Shown here one piece after another: positions 25,863 to 38,199 of a DNA stretch of 38,199 bases. The DNA is from Gammaproteobacteria bacterium (GTDB taxonomy: Bacteria > Pseudomonadota > Gammaproteobacteria > Arenicellales > Poriferihabitantaceae): contig WLWV01000005.1 of NCBI GenBank assembly GCA_012103395.1, forward strand, positions 1 to 38,199, read 5' to 3'. A program made the position numbers and the translations under genes. The notes below the pieces were generated by a model. It saw only the letters and a program-made list of their open reading frames with translations, was not told the DNA's origin and did no database searches. Numbering within the stretch: the stretch's first letter is position 1; every line of letters starts with the position of its first letter.

Positions 25863-27062
25863 TTACAAAGACGTCACCCTTGGCGTTACCATGACATCAT
25901 TCAACAATTCCTGATATCGGTTTTTGACTCTCTCATTATTCACCGAAAATTGCTCAAGGAATTGAGTATTTGCGACGTCAGCCGCTTGAGGGTCATGGTT
26001 TTTCAGCGCTTCCATTAATTTCTTTTTGCCTATTCTGACATTGAATTCAGGATAGTAATACCCAACATCAAGATAATATGGTGAGTTGTGCACTAATGGA
26101 ACTCCCATGTATAGCGCCTCCATGTAAAGGTAATTTAGTCCGTTATAGTGCTGGAAAGCGAGCATCACATCTGCTTTTTGAAACACATCAAAAATCCGGA
26201 ACCGACCTGCAAAGAATACCTTATTCTTCTGGGATGAAAGGTATGTCAGATTTTGCACTACGTTATTGAGAAAGTAGGGTTCGTTGTAAAAATCCAATGA
26301 ATTCAATATCGTTGCTTTTTCAAAAGCCTCTGGGGCTTCTCGACAAACCTCATTCAAAATAGCTAACGGAATCAATGCATTTTTCAACACGCTGGTATTG
26401 GGTTCCATCACGACTACATCAAGCGGACCCACGGTTTCGCTCGGATCGAACTTTTTCGGCACAAATACGGGCTCCCAGATAAATGGCGCAAGCTCTACCC
26501 TCGCTTGATAAAGAGCTTCAATGTAATAAATTGACTTATCAAAGTGAGGGCTAATCCAAACCATCTCAGGCTTTGAGTGGTGGCAATCCGATGACGGGGA
26601 GCCCTTTACAAACAATCTTTCCATATCCAAAAAAAGAGAATTTCCGTAACGAACACAAACTATACGCGCCCCACAGTGCTCCCTAAAAAAAAACCTGTCC
26701 CGTTGTATCAGTCCCAATCCAGCTTCAAATACAATATCAAACGCTAATCCCTGCTGAATAATCTCAGTTGCCGACTTTGTCTTGTACTGCTTCCCTTCTA
26801 TTTCGATAAATTCAAACTCGCTTTCATCAAGGATCATATAGACATCGTGACCAAGGGAATGAAAGAGATCGTAGAGAAACATCACATTCTGGTTGAGCCC
26901 ACTCCCACCAATCAACTGAGAGAGTTCTTCCCCTGTGTTAAAAGTGATACCTAAAGTAAGAGTAGACATCTCAATTGCGCATACTGATGAAAAACCTAAG
27001 ATACAGAAAACCCAAATGGAAGCTTTGCCCTCAACACCTAAGTGAGAGCGCAATTTCGGCAT
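25863..27062 (-). CDS. DUF2827 glycosyltransferase-like protein
   Basis: Uncharacterised family with a GT-B-like look. Recognisable DUF2827 segments are GLNQNVMFLYDLFHSLGHDV near the N-terminus, APFIWEPVFVPK, VVMEPNTSVLKNALIPL, FAGRFRIFDVFQKADVMLAFQHYNGLNYLYMEALYMGVPLVHNSPYY (split: about residues 275-325 of the longer form) and GYYYPEFNVRIG. The Glu in YMEALYMGVPLVHNS recalls the nucleotide-sugar site of glycosyltransferases. The ATG at 27062 is 5 bases after the preceding stop and has AGG at a good distance; it adds a hydrophobic stretch (SIWVFCILGFSSVCAI). Family alignment suggests instead MSTLTLGITF at 26969. Translationally coupled to the SPOR protein upstream. Confidence 0.7.
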   Translation of the reverse strand: MPKLRSHLGVEGKASIWVFCILGFSSVCAIEMSTLTLGITFNTGEELSQLIGGSGLNQNVMFLYDLFHSLGHDVYMILDESEFEFIEIEGKQYKTKSATEIIQQGLAFDIVFEAGLGLIQRDRFFFREHCGARIVCVRYGNSLFLDMERLFVKGSPSSDCHHSKPEMVWISPHFDKSIYYIEALYQARVELAPFIWEPVFVPKKFDPSETVGPLDVVVMEPNTSVLKNALIPLAILNEVCREAPEAFEKATILNSLDFYNEPYFLNNVVQNLTYLSSQKNKVFFAGRFRIFDVFQKADVMLAFQHYNGLNYLYMEALYMGVPLVHNSPYYLDVGYYYPEFNVRIGKKKLMEALKNHDPQAADVANTQFLEQFSVNNERVKNRYQELLNDVMVTPRVTSL

Positions 27063-27067
27063 ACAGC

Positions 27068-30000
27068 CTAATTCAAATCGATTTTCTGATCAAAATCCGA
27101 CAACCCTCTCACCACTTTTGAGAACTTACGAAGCTTCGGTTTGTACTCCTTTATTTGCTCAAGGGGAAAAGTCTTTATCCAAAGCTTAGCTGATTTTCGA
27201 GAGTCGAAAACCCCAATGATAGTTTTGTAGTTTTCCTTCTTAGTTTGATAAACAACGCTATTGCCTAAATTATACTTTTTGATAAACGCAATGGAATCCC
27301 GGGGCGTCTTAGCACTGTGCATTTCAATGGTATAACTGACTGGGTCCTGCTGCCGAATCCAAAGCGAGTCTTTATCTACTGAGTGTGAGGACGATTCCTT
27401 GAGCGCTAGAAACTGGACAACACTTTTCTTAATATCAGAAAACGCTAAAATAGAAACAGCCAAGTCTGAAAACAATCCCGGAAGTCCATCAATAGCCTCT
27501 TGAGCCTGTTTTCTATCAACAAAGACGCCTGAAATCACGCGGCTATTGCCTCCGAGTTGTGGATATATCGCTGCATTAGTGAGTGCATAGCTTGCAACAA
27601 ATCCCATGGCTTCAGCTTCAGATTTTCCTTCATATAAAAGCACACTCAATTCGGCATCACTTCTTTCTAAGATCCAGTTCAATCCCAAGACCCCACTCTC
27701 GCTTTCAATGGTTTTCGGTGCAAGCTCTAACAACACATTCCGATATGAAAGGGGTTGTGGAGCGAAGAGCCTAAGTTCTTGAGGCAAACCGTCTACCGCG
27801 TCTATAGCAGCGGCCTCGTTGGGAAACTTGCCCCCAATGACGCCGAAAGTATTGTCCTTTCGCTTATAAAAACTGGCTCCCGAAATGTTAAATTGTCCAA
27901 CGAAATTTCTCGCATCACTCTCGTTTGTGCTACTGTAGAGTAATACAGTGTATATCTCTTGAGAAGGATCCTGTTGTCCCCAAAACTCTTCAAAGCTCAC
28001 AGGAACACCTGGTGGCACTGCAGCGGGTGGGGTCGCACTCGCTTCAGACAAACCTGCTTCGCTGTATAAGTAACCGAAACTGATTGGTTTGGGCTTAAAG
28101 AATCTTATTTTTTCTGGCAGCTTGGAAATGGTCTCGTTAGCCGTAGCTTCATCACTAAAGACACCAGCTATTGCACCGAAGTTACTCTCACCCATCTTGT
28201 AGACAATGCCATTTAGCACTTGGTATTGCTCCAAAAATAACTTCACACGCTGTATATCACTAGAAGAAAACAGCAAAATCGTAAACTCTTCAGGCTTCCT
28301 CCCAAGGGTCCAATCAACTAATCCAACCGATGATTCAATTGGTTTAGTATTAGCGTTGTTCTGTACATTTCGTGGTTCAGAAGATGTCCTAGTTGGTTTA
28401 GTTGGCGGATTCAGTGCCGCCTTCACTTTCGTAAATTCTCGAGGGAACGGTTTATGCTGTTTCAGAACGGCTGGGAGCTTGTCAATTCTTGAACGAACCT
28501 GGCCAACACCGGAATAGACCCCATCGATAACGTCATAATTGTTCGCCGCAGTTCGGTATATGGCAGGATTTTTGAGCTTATGGCGCTTAACAAATTGCAC
28601 AGCCAATTTGTAGGTTGATAATCTCACCATCTGCATCGTATAACTTTTCGAGTTCTGCGCTAATATCCATGATTCAGCAGGAATACCGTCCTCACCCAAC
28701 TTAGATACGCCCATTGATGCCAGTCCTGCTACTTCACCAGATCCCTGGGTGATAGGCTGTGTCAATACTTTGTTGGCAGAATCAAATTTAGGTGCATTTA
28801 GTACAACATGTATCACGGAAAATTGCTGGGGGAATGGTCCGTATCGTTTGAGTGAATTGGGTAAACCGTTAATCGCATTTTGAGCGAGCGCTCTGGTTTT
28901 ATACACTCCTGCCGTAACGATGTTGTCTCCGTTTTGTGCATGATGAATCGCCGCACCGCTGATTAGGTATTGATTAATGAATTCGATAGCGCGAGAGCGT
29001 GTAGGACTCCTAACAAACTGAACTGTGTAATAGTTAGAGTTTTGCTGGACAACCCAGTTCCTGCCGTATGCGCCCAGCTGGGTATTCGATAGACCCTCAT
29101 TTTTAGGTTCCGCAGACTCTTGGACTGCCGCGTTAGAAGTTGGTGCATTCTTCTCAGCGACGGTCGATAAAAATGTGGCGTTACTGGTTGGTTGTGATAC
29201 CCGTGTTGTCAGACTCTTTTTAATCGGCTGCAATTCTGCTTGAATCGCTGAAAATATGCGCGCTCTGGGTTTATACTGCTTGACGGAATCTGGCAATTTA
29301 CTAATATCAACAAGCGCGCTTCCCGGGTTTTCATAAACACCAGACAACACGGTAAAGTCACCATACTGGGACTGGTATATCGCCGCATTATCAAGGGAGC
29401 TAAAAATAACAAATTCTCGTGCTTCGGACTTTGTCGAACCGCGGTAGTATTCGAGCGTATAAAGTTCTGGATTTTGCCTCCGAACCCATTTGTCGTCGAA
29501 AGTAATCACAGTCGCTATTTCAGCTTCAACTTGGGCTAACAGCTCAATTGCTTCTTGGTGATGCTTTTGCGCAGCCTGTTTCAACCACCTTTTGGCGGTC
29601 AAAATATCCCTTGGTATCTCTTCTCCCTCGATCAGCGCTGACGCTAGTCTAGTTTGTGCATGAACATCTCCCTTTTCCGCTGCCTTAATCCACCAGTATA
29701 GGGCTTCATCAATGTTTTTAGGGAAACTTGGATTACCTTTGTAGTAAAGCGAGCCCAGTGCGAAACTAGCCAGACTATAGCCACCTTCAGCGGATGTTCG
29801 ATACCAGTGCGCTGCGATACCCCAGTGTAAATCAACACCCTGCCCTAGCTCATAGAGTATCGCTAGATTAAATTGAGAAGGGGGCTCTCCCGCTTCTGCG
29901 GCAATTAGCCATTTTTTTGCTGCTGTGTCGTAGTCGCCTTTCTTATATGCATTCACCCCATCGGTAAAATTGTCTGTATTTCCTTGGATAGAAGTGAGCG

Positions 30001-30079
30001 ACAATATTAATAAGCAACAAAAAGCAATTGCTCGACGCCAATACAAACACTTGGATTTTAGGGGAGTAGAAATAACCAT
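27068..30079 (-). CDS. Exported Sel1-repeat protein with seven DamX-like SPOR repeats
   Basis: Very large envelope protein, 1003 residues from the ATG at 30079 (ATAGGT just upstream; the frame also reaches a TTG at 30094). Residues 9-35 form a signal peptide or anchor (KCLYWRR then AIAFCCLLILSLTS). Residues 38-175 are Sel1/TPR-like repeats (AAKKWLIAAEAG, GIAAHWYRTSAEGG, ALYWWIKAAEKGD, AKRWLKQAAQKH). Then seven SPOR-like units at about 197-283, 341-427, 470-556, 589-673, 699-785, 801-885 and 906-992. Each has a W...P..YT strand, an Y/VIxGVF strand and a KLP...KP end, as in the DamX SPOR domain. SPOR domains bind glycan strands stripped of stem peptides at the division septum. Linkers are Ser/Pro/Thr-rich. 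Seven copies in one chain is very unusual. The DUF2827 gene follows by 5 bases. Confidence 0.78.
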   Translation of the reverse strand: MVISTPLKSKCLYWRRAIAFCCLLILSLTSIQGNTDNFTDGVNAYKKGDYDTAAKKWLIAAEAGEPPSQFNLAILYELGQGVDLHWGIAAHWYRTSAEGGYSLASFALGSLYYKGNPSFPKNIDEALYWWIKAAEKGDVHAQTRLASALIEGEEIPRDILTAKRWLKQAAQKHHQEAIELLAQVEAEIATVITFDDKWVRRQNPELYTLEYYRGSTKSEAREFVIFSSLDNAAIYQSQYGDFTVLSGVYENPGSALVDISKLPDSVKQYKPRARIFSAIQAELQPIKKSLTTRVSQPTSNATFLSTVAEKNAPTSNAAVQESAEPKNEGLSNTQLGAYGRNWVVQQNSNYYTVQFVRSPTRSRAIEFINQYLISGAAIHHAQNGDNIVTAGVYKTRALAQNAINGLPNSLKRYGPFPQQFSVIHVVLNAPKFDSANKVLTQPITQGSGEVAGLASMGVSKLGEDGIPAESWILAQNSKSYTMQMVRLSTYKLAVQFVKRHKLKNPAIYRTAANNYDVIDGVYSGVGQVRSRIDKLPAVLKQHKPFPREFTKVKAALNPPTKPTRTSSEPRNVQNNANTKPIESSVGLVDWTLGRKPEEFTILLFSSSDIQRVKLFLEQYQVLNGIVYKMGESNFGAIAGVFSDEATANETISKLPEKIRFFKPKPISFGYLYSEAGLSEASATPPAAVPPGVPVSFEEFWGQQDPSQEIYTVLLYSSTNESDARNFVGQFNISGASFYKRKDNTFGVIGGKFPNEAAAIDAVDGLPQELRLFAPQPLSYRNVLLELAPKTIESESGVLGLNWILERSDAELSVLLYEGKSEAEAMGFVASYALTNAAIYPQLGGNSRVISGVFVDRKQAQEAIDGLPGLFSDLAVSILAFSDIKKSVVQFLALKESSSHSVDKDSLWIRQQDPVSYTIEMHSAKTPRDSIAFIKKYNLGNSVVYQTKKENYKTIIGVFDSRKSAKLWIKTFPLEQIKEYKPKLRKFSKVVRGLSDFDQKIDLN

Positions 30080-30509
30080 ATTACCTATCACCAAAGATTG
30101 AAATCAGTGAATCCTCTGATACCTCTTTTATGAAAACACCTTTAACTTTATTGGTGAATGCAAAGCTAAAGAACGGTCTTCACTTACTATTTACTGTATC
30201 AAATACTTGATCTGACTACGGGTTAGTTGGGATTCACCCTAACTTTGGAATCAACCACATAATCCACAGCAAAACACCATCTTCACAAGATTGCATATTA
30301 TCCTAATACACCAGCGAATCAAACGGTATTTTCATAAAGAAAACGCGATACCAAGAGTAAGGTGACGTACCTGGGTGTAGGTTCACAGAGTACAAAAATC
30401 AACCATCGGGAAGGTAAAGGTATGGGAAAGACACCGTTGGGTCTTTATCGTTTATACCCACCGTGACCCAATCAGGTGATCCTATACTGATACTTGTAGC
30501 AAACCCTAA
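30080..30509. other. Intergenic region with a possible L,D-transpeptidase fragment
   Basis: 430 bases without an intact gene. At about 30345-30466 on the plus strand one frame reads VTYLGVGSQSTKINHREGKG then MGKTPLGLYRLYPP and a stop, loosely like the YkuD pattern (VSTGxG…TPxGxYxI). It has no catalytic Cys/His and no start, so at best it is a remnant. The remainder should contain the promoter of the SPOR gene, but I see no convincing boxes. Confidence 0.3.
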
Positions 30510-32604: not shown

Positions 32605-33771
32605 ATGGCTATCGACTATCCAATAACGCAAGAGCAACAAATGCTAGTTGATTCAGTTCGGATGTTTGTTGAACAGGAATTGGCGCCTCACGAAGCAGAG
32701 GTCGACAAAGCCGGTGAGGTCCCCGAAGAACTCGGCATGCATATTAAAAGCAAGGCTCGGGAAAAAGGGCTCTATGCGCCGAACCTACCTGAATCCATCG
32801 GCGGTGGCGGACTTGATTATAAGAGCCTCGCCCTCCTTGAGAGAGAACTTGGTAAAACAAGCTATGGATTACACGGCTTTATTCATCGCCCGTCAGAAAT
32901 ACTGATGGCCTGTGAAGGTGAGCAAGTGAGCCAATATTTATTGCCATGCGTGACTGGAGAGAAAAAAGAGGTATTCGCCCTGACCGAGCCCGGCGCAGGT
33001 TCTGACATTATGGCAATGCAAACCAAGGCGGTTCGACAAGGCAATGAATTCGTTGTGAATGGATCTAAACACTTCATCAGCAGTCCGGTGATCCCGGATT
33101 TCGCAATTCTTTTTGCGCAAACAGGTACTACCTCCACTTCCCGAGGTGATCGCAAGCTAGTGACCGCTTTTCTCATCGATGCCGACACTCCAGGGTTCTC
33201 CATTGAGCGGGGCCCTAAATGCACCAGTCAGCGGGCTTATCACACCTGGCAGCTCTCATTCAACGGTTGTCGAGTGAGTGAAAATCAGATACTGGGAGAA
33301 GAACATGCAGGATTTGATCTAGCGGATAAATGGTTAAAGATGGGACGAATATGGGTAGCTGCTGCGGCATGCGGCAAAATGGAAAGATTGCTGACACTTG
33401 CGACAAAATGGGCCGCCGATCGTAAACAGTTTGGGCAGCCAATCGGTCGTTTTCAGGGAACCTCTTTTAAGCTTGCCGACATGGCAACCGACTTAAAAGC
33501 GTCAGATTTACTTGTAATGAGCGCTGCTAACAAAGCAGATAATGGAATAATGACAAATGAAGATGCCGCAATGGCTAAACTATTTGCATCGGAAGCCGTT
33601 GGTCGTGCCGCAGATAATACGATTCAAATATACGGTGGAATGGGTTTGATGGAAGAGCTTCCTATTGAACGAATATGGAGAGACGCAAGGCTTGATCGAA
33701 TTTGGGATGGTACATCTGAAATCCAGCGACATATTATTTCCCGTTCGTTGTTGAGGGAGCATAATGGCTAA
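32605..33771 (+). CDS. Acyl-CoA dehydrogenase, likely gamma-butyrobetainyl-CoA dehydrogenase
   Basis: FAD flavoprotein, 388 residues, with all three ACAD domains: N-terminal helical domain, FALTEPGAGSDIMAMQTKA (about residues 128-146) in the flavin-binding middle, and the C-terminal ADRKQFGQPIGRFQ, IYGGMGLMEELPIERIWRDARLDRIWDGTSEIQ signatures (in pieces, residues 270-380). The context, next to a CaiD-like hydratase and a CoA ligase, suggests oxidation of gamma-butyrobetainyl-CoA to crotonobetainyl-CoA, the reverse sense of CaiA in anaerobic E. coli. Substrate is inferred from neighbours. Its stop overlaps the next start by one base (TAATG), so the ligase is coupled. Confidence 0.8.
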   Translation: MAIDYPITQEQQMLVDSVRMFVEQELAPHEAEVDKAGEVPEELGMHIKSKAREKGLYAPNLPESIGGGGLDYKSLALLERELGKTSYGLHGFIHRPSEILMACEGEQVSQYLLPCVTGEKKEVFALTEPGAGSDIMAMQTKAVRQGNEFVVNGSKHFISSPVIPDFAILFAQTGTTSTSRGDRKLVTAFLIDADTPGFSIERGPKCTSQRAYHTWQLSFNGCRVSENQILGEEHAGFDLADKWLKMGRIWVAAAACGKMERLLTLATKWAADRKQFGQPIGRFQGTSFKLADMATDLKASDLLVMSAANKADNGIMTNEDAAMAKLFASEAVGRAADNTIQIYGGMGLMEELPIERIWRDARLDRIWDGTSEIQRHIISRSLLREHNG

Positions 33772-35885
33772 TGTCGATTAGAAAAGAAAACCTGAAACGC
33801 CTACTTGCCCCCAAGAACATCGCATTTATTGGTGGAAAAGATGCCGCATTCTCTGCACGTCAATGCGCAGAACATTTTCCCGGGCCAGTCTGGGGAGTAA
33901 ACCCCAAACGTGAATACCTTGGTGGGCAACCCTGTTACCCAACAGTGTTCGACCTTCCCGAATCACCCGACGCCGTGTTTCTCGCCACACCTCGCGTATT
34001 TACCACTGAAATCGTTGCCCAGCTAAATACCATCGGTGCCGGGGGCGTTGTTTGCTTTACCGCAGGCTATGGCGAACTCGGTGAAAATGGACGAGACTCC
34101 GAACAAAAACTGATAGAAGCTGCGGGAGACTTGGCCTTGGTTGGGCCAAACTGCTATGGGCTTGTCAGCTATGTTAATAATGCCGTTTTATGGCCATTTG
34201 GAGCAGGGCAACCGCGATGCGAAAAAGGAATTGCGCTGATAATGCAAAGTGGAATGATCGCAGCTAATCTCATCATGAACCAACGATCAGTTCCTTTCGC
34301 CTATGTTATCTCCGCCGGAAATCAGTCTATTCTGGCGATAGAGGACTACATTGACGTTTTTGCAGACGATCCAGCGGTATCCGCGATTGGACTCTATGTT
34401 GAAGGGATCGTCAATATGGAAGCATTTGCCAACGCCTCAATGAAAGCATTACGCGCAAACAAGCCCATTGTCGTTTTAAAAGGTGGTAGCTCGGCCATAG
34501 GTTCTCAACTAACAGTCAGCCACACGGGGTCTTTATCAGGCACGGACGATGCCTACGATTCGTTATTTCGGCAACTTGGAATTCTGCGAGTGGATTCGCC
34601 GGAGGCCATGCTGGAAACGTTAAAGTTTATTACCATTTCCGGCTTACCAAATGGAAATCGTCTTTTTGCCTTTACATGTTCCGGGGGTGACGCCGCACTG
34701 GTGGCGGATTACTGTGAGAAGAGAGACCTAAATTTGATACAACCCCAAGGTGACCAGAAACATAACTTAAGCGAGCTGTTACCGGATATCGCCACAGTTT
34801 CCAACCCTTTGGATTACACCACTCCCTTGTGGGGGAATACCGACGTTCTTCCCAACGTTTTTCGAGCGGCGATGACCAACAGCTGTGATATGGCGATATT
34901 TATCCAAGATTACCCTCCCACAGAGATTCATCCTGATAATTCTGCCTATGTGTCTGACGGACTGTCATTTATGAAAGTAGTAAATGAATTGGAGATACCC
35001 TCGGGCATATGCAGCGATATATCAGAAAATATCGATTCTGACTCTCGCCAACGGATGATTGATCGCGGTATTACGCCTATGCAAGGAATAGATCGTGGAT
35101 TGAACGCCTTAGCAGATGCACTTTGGTTAAACGATAAACGACAAGAATTGCTTTCCAATCTTCATGATCACTCTGTCTTTCGGCTCATTAAGCCAAAAAT
35201 AGAGCCATCTGCTGATGGTGAATTGATCACTCTTGACGAGTGGGAAAGTAAACATCTGCTGAAAGATTTTGGTATCGCTGTCCCGAGATCCTTGCTCCTT
35301 GATACGACAGAAATCACCGGCCAGATAGTAAAGCACCACCTGAAATTCCCGTTAGCAGTTAAAGCTGTTAGCTCAGAACTCACTCATAAAACAGACGTTG
35401 GAGCAGTATGGCTTAATGTAGGATCAGATTGCGAAATCATCGATGCTATTGAAAAAATGAAACAATCTTTCCTCGAAAAAGAATTGGATCTTACAAAAAG
35501 CGTTTTTCTTGTTGAAGAGATGATTACTGAAACTACCGCTGAGTTATTGATTGGAGTTCGCTTGGATCAGCAATTCGGACTCGTGATGGTGATCGCCAGT
35601 GGGGGGATCTTGGTAGAGCTGATAAGCGACGGTCAGACCCTACTTCTTCCAACGACTAAAACCCGAATACAGTCTGCCCTTGAATCCCTCTCATCCTATC
35701 GTTTACTGTTGGGGTATCGAGGTAAAGCTGGGGCCAACATACCTCTAATTGTTGACACTATCTTGAAGATTGCATCGTTTGCAGAATCTCGCGCCGACAA
35801 TTTATTCGAGATGGATATCAATCCACTTATCGTAGGGGCTGATTCTGCATACGCGGCAGATGCATTGATACGCTTACACCAATAG
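33771..35885 (+). CDS. NDP-forming acyl-CoA ligase (acetyl-CoA synthetase/succinyl-CoA synthetase-like fusion)
   Basis: 704 residues joining the parts of an ADP-forming acyl-CoA synthetase. CoA-binding Rossmann domain (LLAPKNIAFIGGKDAAFSAR, ...VGPNCYGLVSY), ligase/flavodoxin-like domain with the phosphorylated His in SHTGSLSGTDDAYDSLF (about residue 247), then the ATP-grasp domain (KAVSSELTHKTDVGAVWLNV, VEEMI...LLIGVRLDQQFGLVMV, MDINPLIVG). It should form a CoA ester reversibly with ATP. In this cluster the likely acid is gamma-butyrobetaine, a job done by the AMP-forming CaiC or the CaiB transferase in enterobacteria; this is inference. Coupled to the dehydrogenase by a one-base overlap. Confidence 0.8.
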   Translation: MSIRKENLKRLLAPKNIAFIGGKDAAFSARQCAEHFPGPVWGVNPKREYLGGQPCYPTVFDLPESPDAVFLATPRVFTTEIVAQLNTIGAGGVVCFTAGYGELGENGRDSEQKLIEAAGDLALVGPNCYGLVSYVNNAVLWPFGAGQPRCEKGIALIMQSGMIAANLIMNQRSVPFAYVISAGNQSILAIEDYIDVFADDPAVSAIGLYVEGIVNMEAFANASMKALRANKPIVVLKGGSSAIGSQLTVSHTGSLSGTDDAYDSLFRQLGILRVDSPEAMLETLKFITISGLPNGNRLFAFTCSGGDAALVADYCEKRDLNLIQPQGDQKHNLSELLPDIATVSNPLDYTTPLWGNTDVLPNVFRAAMTNSCDMAIFIQDYPPTEIHPDNSAYVSDGLSFMKVVNELEIPSGICSDISENIDSDSRQRMIDRGITPMQGIDRGLNALADALWLNDKRQELLSNLHDHSVFRLIKPKIEPSADGELITLDEWESKHLLKDFGIAVPRSLLLDTTEITGQIVKHHLKFPLAVKAVSSELTHKTDVGAVWLNVGSDCEIIDAIEKMKQSFLEKELDLTKSVFLVEEMITETTAELLIGVRLDQQFGLVMVIASGGILVELISDGQTLLLPTTKTRIQSALESLSSYRLLLGYRGKAGANIPLIVDTILKIASFAESRADNLFEMDINPLIVGADSAYAADALIRLHQ

Positions 35886-35991
35886 AATCAATGCACTCGT
35901 CTTCCGGTACTAGCCAGATAGCTTTTCATTGCATAATAAGTACACATCATCGATGGCACACACTAAATTGTATGTGCCAAACTCCAATCGA

Positions 35992-36873
35992 CTAGGCTTT
36001 CAAACCTATTTTTTCTCTTGCCTGCTTTGGCGAGAGTACCTTGGCCCCCAATTTTTGAATAATTTCCACCGCCCTTTCCACAAGCATACCATTGCTAGCC
36101 AAAACACCTCGATCCAAATAAATATTATCTTCCAAACCCACCCTAACGTTACCCCCCAAGAGTACTGCCTGAGCAACCATGGGCATCTGAGTCCGACCAA
36201 TTCCAAAGCCAGCCCACAAAGCACCATCAGGCAACGCCTGCTTCATGGCTGTCATAGTTTCAGTATCTGCGCCAGCCCCCCAAGGAATACCGAGGCAAAT
36301 CTGGAACATCGGTGGAAGATCAATCAATCCTTCATCAATTAGCGCCCTCGCAAGTCGTATTTGCCCTAAATCAAAGACTTCCAATTCAGGTTTTACGCCT
36401 AATTCTTGGGCAATACTCGCCATCGTCCTAAGATACGGGGCGGTATTGATATACGTATTGTTTCCATTACCAAAATTCATGGTGCCACAATCAAGGCTGC
36501 AAATATCCGGTAAGCACTCGATGACGTGGGCCAACCTTTCCTCCGGCCCAATCATATCCGTACCAGGACCTGGCATAGACGGGTTCTCAACATCCGGAAC
36601 CCAGTCACCACCCATACCTGCCGTAAGATTTATGATCACCTCACAGCCACTATCCCTCACTCGGTCCACAGTTTCTTTAAACAGAGCTGTATCCCTTGAT
36701 CCATCGCCAGTTTTTGGATCTCTAACGTGAATGTGGGCCACTGCAGCGCCCGCGTTCGCAGCCTCAATTGCGGCATTTGCGACCTGTTCTGGGGTCACCG
36801 GGACATATTTGCTCTTGCTCGTTGTGTCTCCTGCACCAGTCACCGCACAGGTGATAATTACGTCGTTGTTCAT
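35992..36873 (-). CDS. BKACE-family beta-keto acid cleavage enzyme, likely 3-dehydrocarnitine cleavage enzyme
   Basis: 293-residue TIM-barrel zinc enzyme (formerly DUF849). Zn ligands in [11 protein letters not shown] (H47, H49), substrate loop [40 protein letters not shown] with the catalytic Glu/Asp, and the late [17 protein letters not shown] enzymes split a beta-keto acid with acetyl-CoA to give acetoacetate and a new CoA ester. Beside carnitine dehydrogenase this is expected to be 3-dehydrocarnitine to betainyl-CoA plus acetoacetate. Convergent with the ligase gene; a 9-bp imperfect hairpin (35955-35978) in the 106-base gap may serve both messages. Confidence 0.83.
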
Positions 36874-36970
36874 CGTTTTAGTATCAGTGAGATTGTTTTA
36901 ACATTGATTAAAAAAATAGCAGAATAACAACAAACTAACAACCCATTTTAAGAGGGCCGAAAAAATGCTA

Positions 36971-38032
36971 TCACCTATTCACAATACCCTCGAACGCTTT
37001 TTGCATGTTTTCTGCAAAGACCTTGGAATTGCACAATACTGAATTTTGCATCGTACTTCTCAGTTCTCTTTTTAAGGTCAGCAACCTACTACTGTTGCTA
37101 GCTAGCGCAATGATGTTACTGACATAGTCTTCCTCCGTCTCTGACGATAAATCATCTAAGCCTAATCGACAAAGGATGCTTTTACTTACACGACTGCGAT
37201 GGGAGTTTCCACTAAGAGTAACAACAGGAACTCCCATCCACATTGCCTCACAGGTCGTAGTGGTCCCATTGTATGGAAACGTATCCAGTGCTATATCAAT
37301 TTCATTGTACAGAGTCAAGTGCTCCCTGTATCCAGGGGAATGCTGCAACAAACTAATTCGGCTTTCATCCACTCCCGACTTTTGAAAGCAAGAAAGCAAC
37401 TCTAGCCTTACCACCTTGTCAGCAAATGCCTTACTTTTGAGAACTAGGAGCGAATTTGGAATTTCGAGCATTGCCCTTGACCAGGTCTCTATTACCCTAT
37501 CGGTTATCTTACTAATGTTGTTAAAGCTACCAAAGGTAACATTATTTTTGTGGGCTGATGGTGGACTCTCGCTCACCTGAATCGACTCATCACCTAGATA
37601 ACACAAAAAGCCACTCTGTATCCTGATGAGTTTTTCTGAATGCAATTTGTCCGCAATACCGATTGGATCGGCCACTTCATCCGTTATCCGGTAATCCATG
37701 GCAGCTAGCCCCGTCGTATTTGGGTACCCAAGCCAACTTACTTGGACAGGCGCAGCACGGGATAAAAAGATGGGCAACCTGTTACTAGCCGTATGCCCCG
37801 ATAGATCGACCAGAATATTAATCTGATCAGACCGTATGGTGTTAACAGCCTGCTCGTTAGTTAATCCAACTATCGAGTGCCAACCGTGCACTGTTTGTCT
37901 AATACGCTCGGTAACGCCATCTTCTCGCTCAACGTTTGAGTAACAATAGAGTTCATATTTTTCCGAGTCCATACCACAGATCAATGGCTCAAAAAAATAG
38001 GCGATGGAATGTTGACGCAAATCCCCCGACAC
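36971..38032 (-). pseudogene. O-GlcNAc transferase-like (GT41) catalytic domain, 5' end cut off by an IS
   Basis: The C-terminal SPINDLY/OGT catalytic region: LVDLSGHTASNRLPIFLSRA, APVQVSWLGYPNTTGL, VTFGSFNNISKITDRVIETW, and LDTFPYNGTTTTCEAMWMGVPVVTL with the UDP-sugar site. The listed start is a GTG at 38032, but the frame upstream still reads native family sequence (IDDLIAPVKPIRIGFVSGD, a standard OGT entry) up to about 38078. It then meets IS sequence and a TAG at 38087. The TPR repeats that normally precede this domain are absent, so the gene is truncated by insertion. Whether the remaining 353-residue catalytic part is made from the GTG is unknown. The 97-base gap to BKACE (36874-36970) shows nothing notable. 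Confidence 0.75.
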
Positions 38033-38078
38033 AAACCCAATTCGAATAGGCTTAACTGGTGCTATTAAGTCGTCGATT

Positions 38079-38199
38079 GTGCAACCCTACGTCTGTAACT
38101 TCGGTTTAGTTTGAGTCATTATTGTCGTTCCACACGATATATCGCTTGTCGGCATTGCTCCATTCATCGTCAATCTCAACGAGAATGGCACTGACAAGC
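38079..38199 (-). mobile_element. End of the IS256-type element that interrupts the OGT gene
   Basis: Between the transposase stop (38106) and the last OGT-like codons (about 38078) lie some 27 bases that should hold the terminal repeat; the edge is near TGTGCAACCCTACGTC at 38079-38094. The exact end cannot be fixed without the other terminus. Confidence 0.5.
38106..38198 (-). CDS. IS256-family transposase, C-terminal fragment
   Basis: Partial gene leaving the right edge. The minus-strand frame reads LVSAILVEIDDEWSNADKRY and then IVWNDNNDSN and TAA. The pattern AxLxExxDEW....RY is the typical end of IS256/mutator-type transposases (family knowledge). The DDE catalytic residues lie outside the window. 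Transcribed toward the truncated OGT gene. Confidence 0.65.
   Translation of the reverse strand, partial: LVSAILVEIDDEWSNADKRYIVWNDNNDSN

Follow-up and report, generated by a model that had tools for sequence, protein, structure and literature searches.

A Sel1-repeat protein with seven diverged SPOR units, and the linkage of its relatives to trimeric autotransporter genes

Seven SPOR units follow Sel1 repeats in a single protein of a gammaproteobacterium. All seven are retained in a sister species, most have diverged at the residues by which characterised SPOR domains contact glycan, and the nearest one-SPOR relatives of the protein are encoded close to genes for trimeric autotransporter adhesins with a YadA anchor (TAAs), of which the protein may be an accessory. 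The DNA analysed, here called the window, is a whole stretch of 38,199 nucleotides (contig WLWV01000005.1, 1–38,199, assembly GCA_012103395.1, Gammaproteobacteria bacterium; genome G000).

The seven-SPOR protein and its conservation

The reading frame opens on a TTG at 30094 and stops at 27068; an alternative ATG at codon 6 (30079) coincides with the end of the feature in an earlier, sequence-only reading of this DNA. The whole protein scores well above the Pfam cut-offs for both SPOR (PF05036; 66.6 bits, cut-off 21) and Sel1 (PF08238; 62.9 bits, cut-off 30.7), and with 1008 residues and a signal-peptide-like start it bears out the chain of about 1000 residues with signal peptide and Sel1 repeats first described (Table 1). 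The signal-peptide-like part is 45% identical in the sister species, versus 74% for the Sel1 part. No lipobox was seen in residues 1–42, and no hydrophobic 19-mer scores above 1.5 after residue 45, where an internal transmembrane segment was sought. The protein is probably secreted to the periplasm, judging by its N-terminus. Its SPOR units, of 87–89 residues (n = 7), are joined by linkers of 14–57 residues, in most of which small and polar residues predominate. Promoter and terminator scans gave nothing better than chance.

Table 1. Positions of the array gene, its parts and two neighbouring genes in the window
Feature	Positions	Strand	Basis or remark
DUF2827 gene	25863..27062	-	Pfam PF10933, 193 bits; weak glycosyltransferase-like similarity
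Sel1 + seven-SPOR protein, 1008 aa	27068..30094	-	ORF; Pfam SPOR and Sel1; full-length sister orthologue
N-terminal signal-peptide-like segment, aa 1-42	29969..30094	-	hydrophobic stretch aa 22-36
Sel1 repeats, aa 43-195	29510..29968	-	Pfam PF08238; Foldseek
SPOR unit 1, aa 202-288	29231..29491	-	Gln position = Glu
SPOR unit 2, aa 346-432	28799..29059	-	Gln in both species; pI 10.1
SPOR unit 3, aa 475-561	28412..28672	-	Gln here, Arg in sister; pI 10.4
SPOR unit 4, aa 594-680	28055..28315	-	Leu at the Gln position; acidic; SPOR fold in the model
SPOR unit 5, aa 703-791	27722..27988	-	Leu at the Gln position; acidic in this species but not in the sister
SPOR unit 6, aa 806-892	27419..27679	-	Leu at the Gln position (Val in the sister species); acidic
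SPOR unit 7, aa 911-998	27101..27364	-	Glu at the Gln position; strongly basic (pI 10.1)
GT41-family glycosyltransferase, truncated 5' at the contig end, or disrupted	36971..38032	-	Pfam PF13844, 165 bits

The units share only 21–39% pairwise identity, yet profile HMMs built with one unit left out recovered every omitted unit at 57–80 bits, versus at most 12 bits in 1000 shuffles. Searched against the PDB, the seven-unit profile had a single significant match, the SPOR domain of Escherichia coli DamX (2lfv; E 1e-9), so that the seven diverged, DamX-like units of the sequence-only reading stand. Pfam applied to isolated units places only units 2 and 5 over the cut-off, matches units 3, 6 and 7 weakly, and finds no SPOR in units 1 and 4; by itself it would give a count of two, and it was rejected as a unit count because it misses most units.

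Unit 4, one of those missed by Pfam, was modelled alone with AlphaFold from 77 aligned units. The model (pLDDT 90.8) has the RNP-like order beta-alpha-beta-beta-alpha-beta, and its similarity is highest to the SPOR domain of DamX (Z 9.7), with the SPOR domain of RlpA (7.5), CwlC (6.8) and DedD (5.6) also matched; Foldseek (E 2e-5) and VIA-align (Z 9.7) both place DamX first. The structural check proposed for the repeats has therefore come out in favour of SPOR, and the fold is supported for all seven units, by the model for unit 4 and by homology to it for the others. Part of a Burkholderia exported protein, BPSS2145 (PDB 6ozd), also resembles unit 4 (Z 9.0, rmsd 3.7); it was not recovered by sequence search. 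A model of the whole protein from two sequences (pLDDT 51, pTM 0.22) was discarded as unusable for domain arrangement; Foldseek of this low-confidence model returned matches to Sel1 structures.

A second species of the genus encodes a full-length orthologue, also of 1008 residues, that is 60% identical and has the same neighbours (public MAG contig JAALKB010000118.1, Gammaproteobacteria bacterium MH1_Bin6). A search of genome contigs for related loci found nothing beyond this sister species. Between orthologous units identity is 54–80%, and no unit has more than one gap; the linkers are 25–50% identical and gapped. In a tree of the units each pairs one to one with its sister orthologue at 100% bootstrap, and (2,3) and (4,5,6) form duplicate clades. 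The tree places the one-SPOR units of a relative, G034, among the array units; built on few columns, it does not reject a single clade for the array (p-AU 0.26). The seven-unit array predates the split of the two species, in agreement with the earlier view that it is not recent.

Glycan-contact residues and a proposed division role

The SPOR domain is regarded as an almost universal reader of denuded septal glycan. In structures of RlpA with glycan, Q270 (Q351 in DamX, Q251 in FtsN) is the conserved contact made by a side chain, together with a basic patch; W416 is also required in DamX, and most of the RlpA contacts are made through the backbone (PMC6895207). Of 85 other DamX-type units recovered by the same profile, 78 have the Gln and 72 the Trp. 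The array departs from this pattern. Its residues at the Gln position, from unit 1 to unit 7, are E, Q, Q, L, L, L and E in the window species, and E, Q, R, L, L, V and E in the sister; the Gln is thus kept in two units (2 and 3) and in one (unit 2), respectively. None of the seven has the equivalent of DamX W416 (units 2 and 3 have Phe there), and in units 4–6 a hydrophobic residue stands in place of the basic K418. Units of DamX type in family f3 (L039 and L044) can also carry Glu at the Gln position (seven of 85 units in all); their frames, of about 560 residues, lie outside the TAA-linked subfamily described below.

Charge is likewise uneven along the chain. Units 2, 3 and 7 are strongly basic in both species (pI about 10), units 4 and 6 are acidic in each of them, and unit 5 only in the window species. 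All ten residues of the site face are the same in both species in unit 2 (p 0.01, uncorrected for seven units), and for the other units conservation of this face above the average is not significant. On sequence, only unit 2, and unit 3 in the window species, look like canonical binders, and units 4–6 look incapable of the canonical glycan mode. Given the losses of Gln, Trp and basic residue, one or two units look canonical, and a seven-valent binder is unsupported by the sequence.

These data bear directly on the function first proposed, in which several SPOR units cap or cross-link amidase-denuded glycan during division, or scaffold division enzymes. This has become rather unlikely, and seven copies of a septal-glycan site are not supported: the Gln is lost from five units (six in the sister) and the Trp from all, and units 4–6 lack the basic residue too and are mostly acidic, a poor fit to an anionic ligand. 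Several points nonetheless agree with it, including SPOR fold or homology throughout, the unchanged site of unit 2, and the fact that every SPOR protein studied so far acts in division or morphogenesis (PMC6895207). Moreover, since the RlpA contacts are mostly made by the backbone (PMC6895207), side-chain loss need not abolish binding. The division complement of the genome is also compatible: by reading, G000 encodes FtsN-like (by argS), RlpA-like (by mltB/dacA) and DedD-like (by folC) proteins, but no DamX was detected, nor any DamX-type SPOR besides the array; no DamX-type SPOR was found in the other family f1 genomes outside the genus either.

Genomic setting of the array and its relatives

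The distribution of arrays was surveyed with DamX-type SPOR units in about 870 genomes, drawn from the order (109), class (369) and phylum (398) in sets that overlap in part. Outside the genus, none of the matches listed has more than two such units in one reading frame, which is consistent with the statement that Sel1 with many SPOR domains was not a known architecture. The related statement that SPOR domains usually occur once needs qualifying: a single copy is the usual state, yet proteins with two SPOR domains are common in the class, as AAA-IPT-SPOR-SPOR (by reading) and Sel1-SPOR-SPOR-Sel1. Sel1 with one SPOR is a common combination. Among the open-literature hits, no paper on a SPOR array or on Sel1-SPOR proteins with autotransporters was recognised. 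The one-SPOR Sel1 proteins of family f10 (L125–L128) have a conserved gene order that reads as amtB, Sel1-SPOR, prfB, lysS, which suggests a separate conserved role for them.

A profile of the Sel1 part plus the first SPOR unit, searched in the order, delimits a subfamily at E 5.7e-91 or better, the next match being at 1.7e-53. Its members are confined to G000, the sister (G001), G034 (two loci), G039, G030, G044 and G049; all but G049 supplied rows of the profile, so that G049 is the sole independent recovery. The first SPOR unit lacks the Gln at seven of seven loci, versus its presence in 78 of 82 other units (Fisher 5e-8, uncorrected for relatedness), and across the subfamily the site residues are replaced by E, H, K or L.

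In this one order, and partly as found by looking outward from the relatives, a TAA gene lies within 10 kb of the Sel1-SPOR gene at five of five judgeable loci outside the genus and in none of 11 control regions. The linked loci mostly also carry GT41 or GT9-TPR, FkbM or sulfotransferase genes. At G034:C151 a 1115-residue TAA with YadA anchor is directly upstream of the Sel1-SPOR gene, and at G034:C229 the order is TAA, GT41, Sel1-SPOR. G039:C111 has two GT9-TPR genes, a TAA and a sulfotransferase; G030:C10 has FkbM, Sel1-SPOR, a sulfotransferase, two GT9-TPR genes and a 2360-residue TAA; and G044:C54 has two TPR glycosyltransferase-like genes (GT9-TPR homologues) and a 2534-residue TAA. On the 5.2-kb contig G049:C54 the same sulfotransferase and GT9 genes flank Sel1-SPOR. 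The 11 controls, which are other Sel1-SPOR or DamX-type regions, have neither TAA nor glycan-modification genes, and several show the amtB–prfB order. Genes with a YadA anchor occur in 18 of 60 relatives, so that a TAA alone is not rare and it is the adjacency that counts as evidence; both TAAs of G034 and the sole one of G039 adjoin Sel1-SPOR genes.

Within the window genus, the gene closest to the array is that for a DUF2827 protein, five bases downstream on the same strand, an order kept in the sister. DUF2827 was found in only three of 60 relatives: the two species of the genus and G034, which hold the array proteins and their nearest Sel1-SPOR relatives. The orthologue in the sister (L007, 4632–5743) is split into two overlapping frames, by a frameshift or a sequencing error, and sister contig C188 carries a second, intact copy. 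The DUF2827 of G034 (L118, 1665–3512) heads a 615-residue protein whose C-terminal part is methyltransferase-like by eye, and the frame upstream resembles FkbM methyltransferases. The linkage at G034:C66 joins DUF2827 to a SPOR fragment and an FkbM-like gene.

At the far end of the window, the GT41 gene (36968–38197 on the minus strand) is interrupted by an in-frame stop some 36 codons in from the contig edge, and its terminal 150 bp or so do not align to the 646-residue gene of the sister, pointing to a disrupted gene or an assembly error. Sister contig C138 is colinear with window positions 32761–38040 and then continues into a TAA, the gene after GT41; it shares an overlap of 126 bp, identical at 118 positions, with C80, the contig with the sister array, and this join puts the TAA some 9 kb away from the array. 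Genes of acyl-CoA metabolism lie between the two in the genus. A close homologue of this TAA is found on contig C27 of the window genome, beside a second DUF2827, a GT9-TPR and an FkbM-like gene. C27 probably joins the window end; a search for an exact overlap between the two found none. The neighbourhood points to a TAA and glycan-modification locus, with no division genes beside the array, and it speaks against the division role.

This setting also invites a different explanation, in which the SPOR folds were taken over as a rod for protein or glycan interactions, free of peptidoglycan binding, in a pathway of surface glycans or glycoproteins around DUF2827; the TAA link would then arise through shared glycosylation. 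The proximity of DUF2827 to the array, its linkages at G034:C66 and G000:C27 (GT9, FkbM and TAA) and the replaced site residues of the subfamily would fit such a rod. The basic character of units 2, 3 and 7 in both species and the conserved site of unit 2 fit it poorly, and it is unlikely.

A possible adhesin partner and known systems

The reading that we tentatively favour, on sequence features, on gene linkage in relatives and by analogy, is that the seven-SPOR protein may work in the periplasm, as accessory or anchor, for a glycosylated TAA system; its units 2, 3 and 7 would be turned towards peptidoglycan and units 4–6 repurposed. Because the nearest relatives adjoin TAA genes and most units lack the Gln, such a role is more probable than that of division glue. 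The array would have grown in the genus from one SPOR domain to seven. The Sel1 solenoid would bind a protein partner, such as the TAA translocator, a passenger segment or another component of the locus, and the array, on its flexible linkers, would provide attachment to the sacculus. Units 2 and 3, which keep most of the denuded-glycan site, and the strongly basic unit 7 would face the peptidoglycan, and the 4-5-6 clade, devoid of Gln and basic residue, would bind a protein partner or act as a folded spacer. Some points stand against the anchor: in the genus itself the TAA is about 9 kb away and the immediate partner is DUF2827, and the need for seven units is left without account. Neutral growth, in which a one-SPOR ancestor was lengthened by duplication with little functional gain, is highly improbable: relatives do manage with one SPOR, and the units are diverged and include duplicate clades, but an unselected array would erode, and the seven units are far better kept than their linkers, almost free of gaps.

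It is possible, if doubtful, that these proteins are a new family of periplasmic TAA partners in which SPOR has been turned from septal glycan to the wall-anchoring of giant glycosylated adhesins, one genus having built a seven-module, charge-segregated array with separate peptidoglycan- and partner-facing units. If so, a conserved array that keeps the fold but loses the known contacts, and is tied to adhesin loci, would be a case of the SPOR fold re-used. The array would also serve as a natural test of which SPOR residues matter.

Among known systems, DamX is the closest for the units themselves, which are of DamX type and have its SPOR domain (2lfv) as sole significant PDB sequence match and best structural match. 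The array differs in having seven units, against one or two in DamX proteins, with a short beta2–beta3 loop and with other residues in place of most of the glycan-site Gln and Trp; a DamX-style AAA part was not found, the sound Pfam matches of the protein being Sel1 and SPOR only. The Sel1-SPOR and Sel1-SPOR-SPOR-Sel1 proteins of Gammaproteobacteria (such as L086, L088, L093 and L022, and those linked to amtB–prfB) likewise combine secreted-looking Sel1 repeats with DamX-type SPOR, but they have one or two units, nearly always with the Gln, and other neighbourhoods. Closest overall are the TAA-linked one-SPOR Sel1 proteins (G034, G039, G030 and G044, and G049 by its neighbours), which belong to the same subfamily and lack the site Gln; they differ in having one unit, and a TAA within 10 kb on one contig, against about 9 kb by way of a contig join in the genus.

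TpgA, which carries an OmpA-like peptidoglycan-binding domain, offers a parallel of another kind. In the periplasm it partners the trimeric autotransporter AtaA (PMC13082670). The domains of the two proteins are different, as the seven-SPOR protein has no Pfam match to the OmpA-like domain at E up to 1, and they are likened by suggested role: each would be a periplasmic protein holding a TAA. If this likeness is true, the array hints at a means by which trimeric adhesins of great length are tethered in some Gram-negative bacteria.
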